Below, piece after piece: positions 57,555 to 62,379 of a stretch of 64,000 nucleotides of DNA. The notes beneath the pieces were generated by a model that was given only the letters and a program-made list of their open reading frames with translations, ran no database searches and had not been told where the DNA came from. The translations under genes and the position numbers were made by a program. Origin of the DNA: Maribacter sp. MJ134. GTDB lineage: Bacteria; Bacteroidota; Bacteroidia; Flavobacteriales; Flavobacteriaceae. Position 1 is the first letter of the stretch. Each line of letters opens with the position of its first letter. The stretch spans positions 868,001-932,000 of the forward strand of contig NZ_CP034570.1 of NCBI RefSeq assembly GCF_003970695.1. Direction: 5' to 3'.

Positions 57555-58199
57555 CTAGTGCATAGATAAGTCCAAATCAGCGGGGATGAACGTATTCCTG
57601 TTTAAATCATAGATCAGGGCATCCTCCTGAGTTTCTAGATAAATACCCCAAAAGTCAAAATAACTTTGGGGTGTTTTGTTCGGTGTATCTAATTGTGGAT
57701 TGTCAATATTATCTTCGAATACCGGAATAAAAATTTCATACGGTTTTTCGGTTAGCCCTCTGGTAAAATAGACATAGTGGTTAGCAAGTTCTGTAATAAT
57801 AGCATTAAACTGTTGCACTATACTTTTTTCTGATGTGCGCTTTATGATGATACTGGTGTCATTTAGAAAAAGTGTTAGTTCTTCAATATCTAAATCGATT
57901 GACGGATTATCTTCTGCCAGATGATTTAAACCCTTAAGAAGTGGAGAATCTGATAAGTTGTTACTTTTACCCCATCTGTTCTTATTAAAATGAGCAAGCA
58001 TTTCTAACAAATCTATGCTACAAGTCATGTCTAGTGCCATGTCTATGCCTTTCTCATGGATATTGTAATTTCTAAGTGAGATTTCAGAAAAATAGTGATA
58101 CCCAAGAAACTTTAAGTAGTCGTCCAGACCGTTGATTTCAAAATTGACATTGGGACGTAAAAAATTTGAGGAACTTTGGTTATTTAAGTTTGCCGACAT
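57555..58199 (-). CDS. Protein of unknown function in the signalling locus
   Basis: No family is recognised. The 214-residue protein has no signal peptide or membrane helix. It contains a helical middle part (DLLEMLAHFNKNRWG), an acidic segment (DIEELTLFLNDTS) and a C-terminal half with many aromatic and acidic residues (HYVYFTRGLTEKPYEIFIPVFEDN, SYFDFWGIYLETQEDALIYD). The last gene of a minus-strand run, it has upstream a 50-bp sequence shared with the LytTR regulator gene. It may belong to their regulon; function is unknown. Confidence 0.65.
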   Translation of the reverse strand: MSANLNNQSSSNFLRPNVNFEINGLDDYLKFLGYHYFSEISLRNYNIHEKGIDMALDMTCSIDLLEMLAHFNKNRWGKSNNLSDSPLLKGLNHLAEDNPSIDLDIEELTLFLNDTSIIIKRTSEKSIVQQFNAIITELANHYVYFTRGLTEKPYEIFIPVFEDNIDNPQLDTPNKTPQSYFDFWGIYLETQEDALIYDLNRNTFIPADLDLSMH

Positions 58200-58257
58200 A
58201 AACGAATGAAATTATTTAATATCCTATTATAAAGGTAGGTTTAATTAAATTTCGTTC

Positions 58258-58307
58258 GACCTAGGAAAACCTTAGATTTTCGGAGGATATTATGATAAAA
58301 TGCCTTG
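58258..58307. promoter_or_regulatory. Shared 50-bp upstream element, copy 1
   Basis: This segment aligns without gaps to 62330-62379 at about 40 of 50 bases. Conserved blocks are AGGAAAACCTTA, GGAGGATATT and ATAAAATGC. It lies 59-108 bases upstream of the unknown gene starting at 58199. Confidence 0.65.
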
Positions 58308-58360
58308 CGATATCAAAAAATAAAGAATTAGACTACAATACAGATGGAATTCACCTGCAA

Positions 58361-59029
58361 TTATAAAAACCCTCTTTTTCTGGCTTCTTCAATAAGCGCC
58401 AAATCATTACCGTTTTTAACACCGAATATGGCCTTCAATTGTCGTTTTCTTGCCTCTACGGTCGTATTTGCTGAAGAAATCAAGGGTCCAATATCTCTTG
58501 TATTCACACCCAACGATAGATGATAAAGTATTTTCTGGTCTTGATTATCGATGACAATATCGTTGGCCATCTTTTTTCTGATTGCTACCAACGCACTAGA
58601 CGTATAATACGGTGGATTACGAAGAACGGTCTCCACCATGGTTTTCAATGACAGTTCGTCAATTTCTGATTTCACCATATACCCGTCTGGGTTTACAGTA
58701 ACGAATATATTATTTATTCTATAATTGTCGCTAAAGGACGACATGAATACTATTTTAGATGTAGGGACACTATTTCTGGCTATAACCCCTAAATCTACCC
58801 CGGTCCTTGGGTCTTTTGAGCCCGCTGGAAATAGTTGAATGTCCAATAATATAATATCGTAGGGAAGAGCCTTTGCGGAGAGTTCAATTTTTTCCTTTGC
58901 CTTGTCAAAACTTTTTGCGATCTCTACCTTAACTGAAAAATTATCAAATTTCTGCTCCTCAAGGATATACTTGTATCCCAAAGTCGTCATCTCATGGTCA
59001 TCTACCGCTAATATTCGTATGGTATCCAT
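58361..59029 (-). CDS. NarL/LuxR-type response regulator
   Basis: The 222-residue protein has a full receiver domain (acid pair in AVDDHEMT, phospho-acceptor Asp in IILLDIQLFP, Ser in VFMSSFS, Lys in YMVKSE) and a C-terminal helix-turn-helix (LSLGVNTRDIGPLISSANTTVEARKRQLKAIFGV). The receiver has a small insert (PAGSKDPRTGVD) after the phosphorylation site. It is paired with the TPR-histidine kinase encoded 24 bases upstream. Its phosphorylation residues are intact, in contrast to the LytTR protein nearby. Confidence 0.9.
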   Translation of the reverse strand: MDTIRILAVDDHEMTTLGYKYILEEQKFDNFSVKVEIAKSFDKAKEKIELSAKALPYDIILLDIQLFPAGSKDPRTGVDLGVIARNSVPTSKIVFMSSFSDNYRINNIFVTVNPDGYMVKSEIDELSLKTMVETVLRNPPYYTSSALVAIRKKMANDIVIDNQDQKILYHLSLGVNTRDIGPLISSANTTVEARKRQLKAIFGVKNGNDLALIEEARKRGFL

Positions 59030-59052
59030 TTTATAATCGTACTAGTACAGGT

Positions 59053-61167
59053 TTAAACGTCCTGTAATTGATTTTTAGTATTGTCCTTTAGTGACGAATT
59101 CGGCTTTAAAGGAATCTGGACCTGAATAGTGGTTCCATTTCCGGGCTTTGAGCTTATTTTCCAATTGCCGTTCAGCTTATTGACCCTGGACCTTATATTA
59201 CGCATGCCAATACCTTTTTTCTCCTTTTCAAATTTAAAACCTTTGCCATCATCCCTCATGGTAACGACAAATTCGTTATCTATTCTTTCAAAGTTAACAA
59301 AGAAATTTTTACAGACTGCATGTTTTACCGCGTTTTGTAAAGTTTCTTGTATAATGCGATAAACATTGATTTTTACATCTCCTACCAAGCTGTCCCAATC
59401 TTCATTCTCATCGTAGTTAAAGATGGTATTTATATTGTTGTTCCCTTTCGCCGATTGTAATAATGCCTCTATGGAATTTACGAAATTATGGATTCTGGTA
59501 TAAGCGGAATGACTAAGCTCGTGAGAAATAGATCGAATTTCATTTTCAACATCCTTTAAGGCTACGATTGCAGAAGAGCGCTCCTTTATAGCCTCGGAAT
59601 CCGTTTTTTTGTTCAAACCTGTCAAAACCATCCGTGCTCCTAGCATTTTTCCCAACACCCCGTCGTGCAATTCCTCTGAGATACGCTTCTGTTCCATTCG
59701 TTTCACCTCATTTACCTTCTGTTTTTGGGCAAGCATAAGATTAAAAATCTCCTCATTATTTTCTTGCTGTTGTTGTAGAAAACGTAATTTTTGATTTTTC
59801 GCTCTTTGGTTGATGATAATATACACGGAGAGCCCCAGCAAAAAGAAGCCCAAGGCAATCCCCGTCCACATTTGTTTCTGCTGGCTAAGCACTTCCTTTT
59901 CTTCGGCAAGTTCCTCATTTTCTGCAATAAACTCGTCCGTTTCAAAGCGGATACGTGCAAATTTGTTACGTATTTTCCTTTCTTCTAATTGAAGACTATC
60001 GGTAAGTGCAATATAGTGTTGCGCATAGTCCGAGGCTTTTTCGGCATCAATTCTGGCCAAAAATGCAAGGTTTTCCAAGATGCGCTTATTGTTCTCATTT
60101 TTCTGGGCCAATAGTAAGGATTTCTCTGCCCATTCAATACTAGCACTGGTGTCTTTCTGTAAAAGCCTTAACTCCGCCATGCTATAATAGGAGGAGACCA
60201 AGCTACCTGATTCCAAACTATCGTTCAGTACTATGGACCGCTTTATTTTACTTTCGACATCTATGGTATCACCGATACGGATTTTACAAAGTGCTAAGTT
60301 GTTCAAGGTTTTTGCGAACAAACTGATGTTTATTTTATTTGCATCTGGCGTTCCTAATACCTCTTCGAATTTCTCGATTGCTTTTTTATAGTCGCCACTC
60401 TCCCTATATACAATACCTAGGTTATTTTTAAGTCTAAGTAGATAGGAGGTGTCATTGTCCAATTTGTCTAGATAGGTACGTGCTTGATTGAAGTAAGCGA
60501 TAGCTTTGGAATACTGCTTTAGGTCTTCAGATACAACTCCTAAATCATTGTAGGTCTCAAATAAATCTCTATAACTATCCGTTTGCTTCAAGCGTTCAAT
60601 AGCTAAAATGAGATTCGTTTCGGCACCCACATAGTCTTTGACACTTTCCTGGATGTTTGCAATGTACAATAGTAATTTCCCGGAATTTAAATAATTTTCT
60701 TTTAAATCATATATTTTCTGAGCTTCGTAGTAATGAAAATATGCACTGTCCAATACGGCCCTTCTCTTAAAGAATACCGCTAAATCCCAGTGAGCTTCCG
60801 CTAGTATTACCGAATCATTTGCAATACGCCCCAATCTTATGGCATCGTGATTTATCCTTCGAAACAAAGCCGTGTCCTTTGTACGAATGCTTTTAAAGGA
60901 AAGTTTGGAAACTAGTTTTAGTTTTAGTTGTTCATCACTCAAAGATTTTGCATAAGTATAGGCTTGGTCTAACCAGGCAAATTCATCTTCCGGTTCGGAA
61001 ACTTTATTTTGAAATGATTGGACAAGTCTATTTACGCTATCATTGGTAATTTCGGTTTGATTTAAATTTTTCTTTTGTCCTAAGGTGAACTGCCCAAATA
61101 TGATAACTAAGGTTACTAAAAAAAACCTTAACCTTTTATTTCGCTTAATTAGTTTAGCTTTCAACAT
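59053..61167 (-). CDS. TPR-containing sensor histidine kinase (HisKA_3)
   Basis: The 704-residue protein has an N-terminal signal/anchor (FFLVTLVIIFGQFTLG), a TPR-repeat sensor of about 360 residues (for example YNDLGVVSEDLKQYSKAIAYFNQA and NNLGIVYRESGDYKKAIEKFEEVL), a coiled coil, one membrane helix (WTGIALGFFLLGLSVYIII), HisKA_3 with phospho-acceptor His in RISEELHDGVLGK, and HATPase with ETLQNAVKHA, DDGKGF and GIGMRNIRSRV. It phosphorylates the NarL-type regulator next to it. I chose the ATG at 61167 over an upstream TTG. The start is only 14 bases from the terminator of the small peptide gene. Confidence 0.92.
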   Translation of the reverse strand: MLKAKLIKRNKRLRFFLVTLVIIFGQFTLGQKKNLNQTEITNDSVNRLVQSFQNKVSEPEDEFAWLDQAYTYAKSLSDEQLKLKLVSKLSFKSIRTKDTALFRRINHDAIRLGRIANDSVILAEAHWDLAVFFKRRAVLDSAYFHYYEAQKIYDLKENYLNSGKLLLYIANIQESVKDYVGAETNLILAIERLKQTDSYRDLFETYNDLGVVSEDLKQYSKAIAYFNQARTYLDKLDNDTSYLLRLKNNLGIVYRESGDYKKAIEKFEEVLGTPDANKINISLFAKTLNNLALCKIRIGDTIDVESKIKRSIVLNDSLESGSLVSSYYSMAELRLLQKDTSASIEWAEKSLLLAQKNENNKRILENLAFLARIDAEKASDYAQHYIALTDSLQLEERKIRNKFARIRFETDEFIAENEELAEEKEVLSQQKQMWTGIALGFFLLGLSVYIIINQRAKNQKLRFLQQQQENNEEIFNLMLAQKQKVNEVKRMEQKRISEELHDGVLGKMLGARMVLTGLNKKTDSEAIKERSSAIVALKDVENEIRSISHELSHSAYTRIHNFVNSIEALLQSAKGNNNINTIFNYDENEDWDSLVGDVKINVYRIIQETLQNAVKHAVCKNFFVNFERIDNEFVVTMRDDGKGFKFEKEKKGIGMRNIRSRVNKLNGNWKISSKPGNGTTIQVQIPLKPNSSLKDNTKNQLQDV

Positions 61168-61180
61168 TAAGTACAAGATA

Positions 61181-61211
61181 AAAAAAAGCCTTGAAGTACA
61201 ACTTCAAGGCT
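61181..61211 (-). terminator. Terminator after the small peptide gene
   Basis: AGCCTTGAAGT (61187-61197) and ACTTCAAGGCT (61201-61211) form a perfect 11-bp stem with a 3-base loop. On the minus strand a run of seven T follows. It separates the peptide gene from the kinase gene, so kinase expression needs read-through or a promoter inside this short gap. Confidence 0.88.
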
Positions 61212-61236
61212 CAACATATTATTATCAACTGGAGAA

Positions 61237-61413
61237 CTACGCGTTATTATTACCATTACCTCGATCATCCTCGGATTTAGAACAATCATCACAAGCTATC
61301 ATACTACTAATATCATCTAAAAAATTAAATTCGTTTGAGTTGCTATCCACTACAAAAGTAGTTACTCCAAATGCCATTGCTGCTACTGCGAAAATGCTGA
61401 TTACCTTTTTCAT
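61237..61413 (-). CDS. Small secreted peptide, 58 residues, CxxC-like
   Basis: The gene is short and easily missed. Its product opens with a classical signal sequence (MKKVISIFAVAAMAFGVTTF), then VVDSNSNEFNFLDDISSMIACDDC in outline, with Cys41 and Cys44, an acidic KSEDDRGNG stretch and ends in NNNA. The mature part would be about 35-40 residues. It has its own strong terminator and about 138 bases of non-coding sequence upstream, which supports a real, well-expressed gene. It resembles in form the short NVEALA-type Bacteroidota peptides but lacks that motif. It lies between a LytTR regulator and a sensor kinase, so a signal or sensed peptide is possible. Confidence 0.7.
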   Translation of the reverse strand: MKKVISIFAVAAMAFGVTTFVVDSNSNEFNFLDDISSMIACDDCSKSEDDRGNGNNNA

Positions 61414-61508
61414 GTTTATTTATTTTTTAGTTTGTATACGTTTATTATACTGCCAAGGTAATAAGCATGACAGGGTGAATACTATTTTAGAGCCTATAAC
61501 TAGTGGTT

Positions 61509-61521
61509 GTAGATGGTCTAC
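61509..61521. promoter_or_regulatory. Small inverted repeat between LytTR gene and peptide gene
   Basis: GTAGA and TCTAC flank TGG. It lies about 100 bases upstream of the peptide ATG and 31 bases past the stop of the LytTR gene. It may be an operator; evidence is only the symmetry. Confidence 0.25.
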
Positions 61522-61551
61522 GAGTATTTGGCCTAGTTTTGAGAGAATTCG

Positions 61552-62283
61552 TTAATTTAAGTTGGAAACGGAGTTTTGGGAAAGGATTTTTTTAAGATTA
61601 TCCATATTCTCTCGGTAAGTTTTAGAAAAAGGAAGACTTTTATTATTTTTCTTTAAGGCGCAGATAGACTTCCCAAAGTTTATTCTAGAAACATAGTCCG
61701 TATTAACGATATAACTTTGATGTATACGTACAAAGTTTTTTGGAAGCTGCTTTTCAAAAGTTTTTAATGTCTTATATGCATGGGTAACGTTGCCGCCTAT
61801 CATATGAAATTCGGTAGTGTTGTTATCCGCTTGTAGGTACAGAATATCCGTGGTGTCCAGATATTGAAAATCATTATAAGATTTTAGACAAATGGTTTGT
61901 GGTGCAGCTTCCTTTGGAAGCTTTTTCCTTAGTTTTAGCAAGGATTTTCTAATGTCGAACTCATTATACGGTAGCAACCAATAATCGAAGAAATTATTTT
62001 TTATCGCTTCGTAAGCATGCTCTTTTGTTTTGGATATACCGATGACCAAGGGAACGGTGGTGACATACTGATGCAATTCCACAACCATTTGAAATAGGGC
62101 AGAAGCCTTATCGTTTAAATTAACAAAAATAATATCTGGAGTGTACTTGAGAATATTGTTCAGACCATCGGACGGACTCTTTAGGTTTCCTACACAGCTA
62201 AAGTCGCCATACTCGTCCAAAAATGCCTGTAACTGCAAATTTGAGACCGCATCGGAGTCTATTATACTGTAATTGTATTCCAA
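61552..62283 (-). CDS. LytTR-family regulator with degenerate receiver domain
   Basis: The 243-residue protein has a receiver-like N-terminal half and a LytTR DNA-binding domain (about 130-235: TICLKSYNDFQYLDTTDILYLQADNN, FVRIHQSYIVNTDYV). The phospho-acceptor Asp is replaced by Asn55 (IIFVNLND) and the conserved Lys of the KP motif by Leu104 (DYWLLPY); one of the acidic pair remains (IIDSD). The receiver thus cannot be phosphorylated in the normal way. It must respond to another signal or act constitutively. It has a copy of the 50-bp shared element upstream. Confidence 0.88.
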   Translation of the reverse strand: MEYNYSIIDSDAVSNLQLQAFLDEYGDFSCVGNLKSPSDGLNNILKYTPDIIFVNLNDKASALFQMVVELHQYVTTVPLVIGISKTKEHAYEAIKNNFFDYWLLPYNEFDIRKSLLKLRKKLPKEAAPQTICLKSYNDFQYLDTTDILYLQADNNTTEFHMIGGNVTHAYKTLKTFEKQLPKNFVRIHQSYIVNTDYVSRINFGKSICALKKNNKSLPFSKTYRENMDNLKKILSQNSVSNLN

Positions 62284-62329
62284 AATAAATAGTGTTCTAC
62301 AGCAAGTTAATAATTGTAAATACCAAACT

Positions 62330-62379
62330 GACCGAGGAAAACCTTATAAAAGTGGAGGATATTGTTATAAAATGCGTTG
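62330..62379. promoter_or_regulatory. Shared 50-bp upstream element, copy 2
   Basis: This is the partner of 58258-58307, in the same orientation, 47-96 bases upstream of the LytTR start codon. The conserved blocks are AGGAAAACCTTA, GGAGGATATT and ATAAAATGC. Confidence 0.65.

Follow-up and report, generated by a model that had tools for sequence, protein, structure and literature searches.

Do five adjacent genes on the minus strand of the Maribacter sp. MJ134 genome form a system that senses a peptide, or do they stand in a row by coincidence? The genes occupy positions 57555–62379 of a stretch of 64,000 nucleotides (nt; assembly GCF_003970695.1, contig NZ_CP034570.1, positions 868,001–932,000, forward strand), which we call the window and to whose positions all feature coordinates refer. 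The five-gene row is a real, conserved module. Taken together, its genes look like a complete chemical-messaging circuit, and a similar circuit appears to be present in many relatives within the Flavobacteriaceae. The best reading of the locus, and in our judgement probably the correct one, is an autoregulated peptide-signalling system whose signal is sensed outside the cytoplasm.

Gene row and its conservation

All five minus-strand genes proposed by an earlier examination of the letters alone (the sequence-only reading) were found. They encode a LytTR protein with a receiver-like domain (61552–62283), an exported peptide precursor of 58 amino acids (aa; 61237–61413), a histidine kinase of 704 aa starting at ATG (59053–61167; the alternative listed start is a TTG at 61176), a NarL-like response regulator (58361–59029) and, last, a protein without assigned function, here called P1unk (57555–58199), which is the probable output. 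An Rfam scan of the locus gave a single match, below threshold (NsiR1, 21.2 bits against 39).

Among 36 genomes of the genus, the LytTR orthologue is present in 34 (of these, one is truncated by the end of its contig, one is broken and one amounts to a short fragment), the peptide gene in 33 and P1unk in 34. The sequence-only reading had named the loss of the peptide or LytTR gene from most relatives as the outcome that would speak against a module, and these counts are the opposite of that outcome. All three genes are unmatched in G021 and G032, which are assemblies in about 530 and 360 contigs. Thirty-three of the 34 genus loci fetched hold all five genes, including one with a broken LytTR and kinase (L132). 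In L132/L197 (Maribacter litopenaei) both of these frames are broken, possibly through sequencing errors.

Conserved order in several genera had been put forward as the test of a module, and it is what we observe: among the 66 named loci, which represent about a dozen genera, 57 have LytTR, kinase, regulator and P1unk in succession (besides Maribacter: Eudoraea, Poritiphilus, Kriegella, Muriicola, Aurantibacter, Saonia, Cerina, Croceitalea and others). Some matches are missing from the other nine, namely L153, L166, L175, L192, L194 and L195, whose stretches end early, in several cases at the edge of a contig, L157, which is cut within the kinase, and L198 and L199, which hold a distant LytTR only. 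Transposase-like sequence was noticed by reading near the module break of L157. Most of the named and genus loci are flanked by UP517 upstream and by a convergent glyA.

The distribution is broader than the sequence-only reading had held. A profile built from 14 LytTR proteins matched, at E ≤ 1e-30, 120 of 397 Flavobacteriaceae genomes, that is, 81 of 237 genera; some of these matches, in genus g151, span the DNA-binding half only (G200, G389 and others carry frames of 271–324 aa in which the match is limited to this half). Outside the family the signal fades: among 296 genomes sampled from the phylum, including many Flavobacteriaceae, 22 gave matches at the same threshold, namely 21 family members and, with a weaker match, G727 of the same order, and the best LytTR match in 39 same-order genomes outside the family reached 6.6e-22.

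The loci compared below come from 206 stretches (40 + 66 + 100), the last hundred being new places in the family fetched from the profile matches, with truncated, partial and weakest ones left out. LytTR is carried by 205 stretches. The kinase follows it in 197; the regulator is present as well in 193 of them, and all but one of these, 192, have a peptide frame in addition. Removal of repeats (same LytTR and kinase tail) left 154 unique full loci, 113 with a P1unk match and 41 without one in the stretch. The order LytTR–peptide–kinase in these 154 is partly given by construction, because only loci with the kinase behind LytTR were taken and the search for a peptide was confined to the gap between the two genes. 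A kinase match ahead of LytTR occurs in none of the loci, and the row persists also where the neighbours (glyA, P1unk) differ.

Some loci carry rearrangements. A second TPR (tetratricopeptide repeat) histidine kinase stands between kinase and regulator in L160, L162 and L251, as receptor duplications (in L162 in pieces). L255 (G106) has two LytTR copies about 1.1 kb apart, at contig positions 3236945–3237658 and 3238048–3238785. In L277, L282 and L289 the genes that follow resemble, by reading, those for pseudopilins and for the F protein of type II secretion.

Peptide precursor

The peptide frame confirms the 58-residue exported peptide of the sequence-only reading: it has a Sec-like signal by eye and an ACDDC core, and matches nothing in Pfam or NCBIfam. 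A signal-like frame of at least 28 aa fills the gap in 192 of the 193 loci with LytTR, kinase and regulator; the single locus without it, L288, shows a lipobox start and then a reading-frame break. The 154 unique loci were chosen for having such a frame, and at the stricter length of at least 45 aa it is found in 151 of their gaps, as compared with 26 of 770 sequences shuffled by dinucleotide and 13 of 154 on the reverse strand. Since the frame fills the gaps far more often than it does shuffled or reverse sequence, it is not a product of chance.

Precursors are of two types. The first, in Maribacter and some others, combines a Sec signal with a CDxC core; the second combines a lipobox with an acidic core, (A)TDGDDxP..R or ATGDD. 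A precursor from Saonia carries the lipobox and CDTC together. By strict pattern, a lipobox-like signal is present in 88 of the 154 precursors, while 22 fit neither signal pattern, most of these showing a lipobox by eye; among CxxC precursors the lipobox occurs in 7 of 51.

The C-terminal core is multiplied in some relatives. A strict script detected tandem units in 19 of the 154 unique precursors versus none of 154 shuffled tails, and it missed the double cores visible by eye in L168, L184 and L189. Copy number varies from one in the window peptide up to 14, in both core types and in several clades: CDNC three times in L104, CDDC eight times in L247 and six in L255, TDGDD five times in L169 and seven in L231, TDGDH six times in L240. 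The longest array, in L253 (G445), is a precursor of 507 aa with 14 near-identical ATDGD cores in 34-aa units. The core array of L262 (G468) appears by eye to shift frame midway, the repeat then being read in the second frame to the end. By its sequence, the small gene resembles a signal precursor.

Kinase, response regulator and LytTR protein

The kinase (59053–61167) consists of an N-terminal hydrophobic segment, a TPR ectodomain, a transmembrane (TM) segment at residues 436–452, HisKA_3 and HATPase. TPR and HATPase_c were above the Pfam cut-off and HisKA_3 was just below it. The regulator has intact Asp10/Asp11, Asp63 and Lys120; its Response_reg match in Pfam is sub-threshold, and its DNA-binding part gave no helix-turn-helix match in the Pfam scan, with NarL-type full-length NCBIfam models matching below cut-off. 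Residues were aligned over 152 loci (two of the 154, with kinases under 560 aa, were left out), and the catalytic positions of this pair are kept without exception: the phospho-acceptor His and the N-box Asn of the kinase and the phospho-Asp and Lys of the regulator are each present in 152/152. By these kinase and receiver residues, the HisKA_3 kinase and NarL-like regulator form a two-component pair.

The LytTR protein shows the reverse. Pfam finds its LytTR domain (PF04397, 5.6e-19) and no receiver domain in the window protein, although NCBIfam regulator models span the receiver-like half (BtsR 1.1e-18, below cut-off). The phospho-site holds Asn 55, and Leu 104 stands in place of the usual Lys. 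Of the 152 loci, 125 have Asn at this site, 12 have Asp, 6 His and 4 Glu, and the receiver Lys is present in 34. The claim that this protein cannot be phosphorylated normally fits both the window protein, with its Asn 55, and most of its relatives, phospho-Asp being kept in 12/152. Compared with the classical LytTR regulators AgrA and ComE, it shares the DNA-binding domain and lacks the phosphorylatable receiver. Its start codon, TTG (62281–62283), is shared at the corresponding position by most Maribacter relatives.

Sequence varies most in the TPR part, with a mean pairwise identity of 0.36, against 0.46 for the kinase core, 0.50 for the regulator and 0.54 for LytTR. A TM-like segment precedes the H-box in all 152 kinases, an N-terminal hydrophobic segment is found in 132, and a further TM-like stretch inside the TPR part in 4. 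Because hydrophobic segments flank it, we infer that the TPR part is placed outside the cytoplasm. The ectodomain is predicted to be a TPR superhelix (predicted local distance difference test, pLDDT, 86.5). LGN, a peptide-binding TPR protein, tops the list of its structural neighbours, and Rap-Phr* (6t46), Rap-CSF (4gyo) and NprR (5dbk) are at ranks 29–35. These neighbours of the model show a general TPR likeness and no proof of the ligand type.

Candidate operators, promoters and terminator

The sequence-only reading linked the first and last genes by a shared upstream element. This element, operator 1, lies on the minus strand upstream of LytTR (copy A, 62330–62362) and of P1unk (copy B, 58258–58290), and 20 nt after each copy follows a −7-type promoter box, TAACTTGC at 62302–62309 and TACCTTTA at 58230–58237. 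We take TAnnTTTG to be the Bacteroidetes −7 box. Operator 1 has two matches in the window with none expected. A pattern scan of the whole genome (4.0 Mb) returned both copies and one site with 3 mismatches. When a 68-position model of element plus box was applied to the 4,016,247 bases, with 150 of 3524 first-look candidates scored, the two copies reached 54.0 and 48.8 bits and the third-best site 19.8 bits. We rejected the idea that operator 1 controls further genes of this genome, as that third site falls within a coding frame of 851 aa. The loop proposed below looks local here: besides LytTR, P1unk alone has a strong operator 1.

In Maribacter, where 64 sites were found and 34 of them aligned, operator 1 has the form CCTCC-N7-TAAGG-N5-CCT, and the box TAnnTT (T58, A59, T62, T63) is invariant at a constant place in 34/34. 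By eye, some other genera have CCCC..GGGG, some loci without P1unk have CCTTA..TAAGG..CCTTA or CCGCA..TGCGG..CCGCA, and the half-sites seem to co-change. A matrix trained on the 64 Maribacter sites was tested on 80 P1unk loci beyond the 34 genus training loci, among which are a few metagenome-assembled genomes or strains that NCBI calls Maribacter (L160, L170, L178, L190, L191). In 75 of the 80, the best match of the whole locus is one of the sites upstream of these two genes, LytTR and P1unk, and in 61 the top two matches are exactly this pair of sites. One miss, in L124, is by reading an operator 1B before a broken P1unk; the figure of 75/80 is left as scored. The proposed link holds, and judged by its sequence and place the shared element looks like a conserved operator–promoter of LytTR and the last gene. 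In some genera CCCC..GGGG followed by a T run suggested a terminator or RNA hairpin instead; we set this aside because the box lies 20 nt away at both genes of the window and is constant in the 34 aligned sites. Several loci without P1unk also show, by eye, similar sites in front of LytTR and after the regulator gene.

The peptide gene has a site of another kind. Operator 2 (61496–61549, minus strand) consists of three direct half-sites with a period of 21 base pairs (bp), the third being the weakest here, and a promoter-like box, TACCTTGG, follows at 61453–61460, a place where relatives also have a box. Among periods of 10–44, a period of 21 is the most prominent behind LytTR in each of three sets of loci (33, 80 and 41). 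The regular expression for half-sites 1 and 2 fits 55 of the 113 P1unk loci with one constant spacing, and the strict promoter box is at the expected place in 73 of them; elsewhere in this genome, the half-site 1+2 pattern matches nothing besides its own copy. LytTR sites are usually direct repeats of about 21–22 bp. As such repeats are typical of LytTR, the sites themselves suggest that operator 2 is bound by LytTR and operator 1 by the regulator.

Between the peptide and kinase genes lies an intrinsic terminator-like site (61186–61212, minus strand). Terminators were scanned in gaps of 25–400 nt: 132 of 147 peptide–kinase gaps contain such a site, versus 3 of 147 when shuffled, while LytTR–peptide gaps contain it in 7 of 150, versus 2 shuffled. 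Its position behind the peptide gene means that it should favour the peptide over the kinase.

Last gene and variable downstream genes

P1unk of the window has no match in Pfam or NCBIfam, and for its family Pfam returned 11 families, each from 1 of 53 members at E of at least 0.02. The predicted structure is an alpha/beta fold; its model has no structural match in the PDB at E ≤ 0.001, and the best E of the P1unk profile against PDB sequences is only 0.018. P1unk is found in 73 of the 397 Flavobacteriaceae genomes, and LytTR is present in 70 of these. It is probably the output of the proposed circuit.

In the 41 loci that have no P1unk match, the regulator is followed by differing genes. By reading, L267–L309 include 800-aa outer-membrane-like proteins, NusG-like and AMP-ligase-like genes, a radical SAM start and a GLPGLI-type protein, which look as if alternative outputs were plugged in.

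Proposed circuit and alternatives

Under the peptide-signalling reading, the small gene would yield an exported precursor (by Sec signal or lipobox) whose C-terminal core is the signal. Free or membrane-tethered, this signal would meet the TPR ectodomain of the kinase outside the cytoplasm and be sensed there as its ligand. The kinase would phosphorylate the NarL-like regulator, which may then activate operator 1 at the LytTR and P1unk promoters. LytTR, having lost phosphorylation in most members, would serve as a relay with its activity set by its amount; it would bind the 21-bp repeats of operator 2 and raise the peptide promoter. Read-through of the terminator by some transcripts would supply kinase and regulator, and the outcome would be a positive loop in which peptide is abundant and receptor scarce. 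That the locus is a module with a conserved order, as the sequence-only reading had it, is borne out by observation; peptide sensing we still infer, with the tandem cores, the terminator and the TPR ectodomain in its favour.

Several points tell against this reading. Partial Mantel tests for co-variation of core and TPR part beyond common descent gave no consistent signal: r was 0.038 (p 0.07) over 111 P1unk loci and −0.027 (p 0.66) in their acidic subset (61), with weakly positive values in the CxxC subset (50 of the 111; r 0.131, p 0.026) and in the 41 loci without P1unk (r 0.164, p 0.025), and over the 111 the core correlates better with LytTR (0.096) and the regulator (0.195) than with the TPR part. 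The core type changes 7 times on the TPR tree, 9 times each on those of LytTR and the kinase core and 8 times on that of the regulator, a gap too small to count. Neither a protease nor an exporter is in the conserved row, and many precursors look lipidated, so that diffusion would be hindered unless the core is released. L277, L282 and L289 have LytTR and regulator with no kinase match or peptide frame in the stretch, and of the 41 loci without P1unk just 4 have their LytTR site as the top match of the Maribacter matrix.

Could the small protein act in cis instead? NlpE and RcsF report the state of the envelope, and the exported protein might likewise be a co-sensor, with the kinase reading how it is matured or transported, or its binding state (metal, disulphide). 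The lipobox-like signal in 88/154 precursors and most of the 22 unassigned ones would suit this, as would acidic (DGDD) or CxxC cores able to bind metal or form a disulphide, and the lack of a protease or exporter in the row. Multiplication of the core up to 14 times, in several clades and both types, is nevertheless more in keeping with a released signal than with a folded sensor; moreover, most CxxC precursors have no lipobox, and the terminator should favour peptide over kinase, so we regard a co-sensor as unlikely. Rather less probable still is an effector (a bacteriocin, modified peptide or extracellular binder) under control of the two-component system, with P1unk as immunity or accessory protein. 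Multi-core precursors are also known among modified peptides, LytTR accompanies P1unk in 70 of 73 genomes, and natural-product-like genes stand behind the regulator by reading (NusG-like with AMP-ligase-like in L269, L274 and L287, a radical SAM start in L293); on the other hand, the conserved row has no modification or immunity gene, 41 of the 154 full loci keep the peptide without a P1unk match in the stretch, and kinase and regulator accompany the peptide in 192 of 193 loci. A chance row of unrelated genes, which the sequence-only reading had allowed for, could draw on the promoter-like sites and the terminator within the row, but LytTR, peptide, kinase and regulator stay together in 192 of 205 LytTR loci, also with differing neighbours, and we consider coincidence extremely improbable.

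Returning to the signalling reading, we see about an even chance that it extends to a family-wide pheromone language of Gram-negative bacteria, in which 1–14 tandem cores are cut from secreted or lipidated precursors, TPR kinases read them outside the inner membrane, phosphorylation-dead LytTR proteins provide gain control, and CxxC and DGDD represent lineage dialects. The module is a testable candidate in dozens of Flavobacteriaceae genera; it supplies one output gene, a receptor and operator-like sites of two kinds, with the cores as candidate signals.

Comparison with known systems

A search of open-licence papers, aimed at LytTR proteins and TPR kinases as well as at peptide signals, tandem precursors and the Flavobacteriia or Bacteroidota, gave no description of this system among the papers listed. 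To our knowledge, no peptide-pheromone system has been described in the Bacteroidota.

Some likeness exists to known circuits of other bacteria. Agr and ComCDE have a LytTR regulator, sites made of direct repeats of about 21–22 bp and a precursor gene beside the regulatory genes, all of which recur here; in those systems LytTR is the phosphorylated partner of the kinase, whereas here most LytTR proteins have no phospho-Asp and the intact partner is a NarL-like regulator encoded separately. ComQXPA of Bacillus has the order precursor, HisKA_3-type kinase and NarL-type regulator, as does our locus. ComP, however, has a multi-TM sensor, and ComX, a pheromone carrying Trp, is isoprenylated by ComQ; the present system has a TPR sensor, an additional LytTR, tandem cores and no further gene in the conserved row. 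The window peptide contains no Trp and the row no extra gene, the genome not having been searched for ComQ.

Ribosomally synthesized and post-translationally modified peptide (RiPP) clusters of the Bacteroidales have small peptide genes near TPR or kinase/regulator genes, with modification enzymes and peptidase-transporters (PMC10352776). Such enzymes and transporters lie outside the conserved row in our case, and that text does not mention LytTR.

A further parallel in form is with the RRNPPA systems of Firmicutes (Rap/NprR/PlcR/PrgX/Rgg/AimR), which have an exported propeptide and a TPR receptor, as this locus appears to. According to PMC9765709, repetition of the mature pheromone within the propeptide is common for AimR, NprR, Rap and PlcR, and by its sequence the precursor here fits this form, with an export signal and a C-terminal, sometimes repeated core; the ectodomain model resembles the Rap and NprR folds, among others. 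RRNPPA receptors are described as cytoplasmic and binding reimported peptide (PMC9765709), whereas the TPR repeats here are the sensor part of a membrane histidine kinase of Gram-negative bacteria and by predicted topology not cytoplasmic (TM segment in 152/152, N-terminal segment in 132/152). Common descent of the two is not indicated beyond the TPR repeats. If the proposed circuit is true, a pseudo-receiver LytTR has been retained as a relay, TPR repeats serve peptide signalling outside the cytoplasm, and the kinases described here represent an external counterpart of the Firmicutes RRNPPA receptors.

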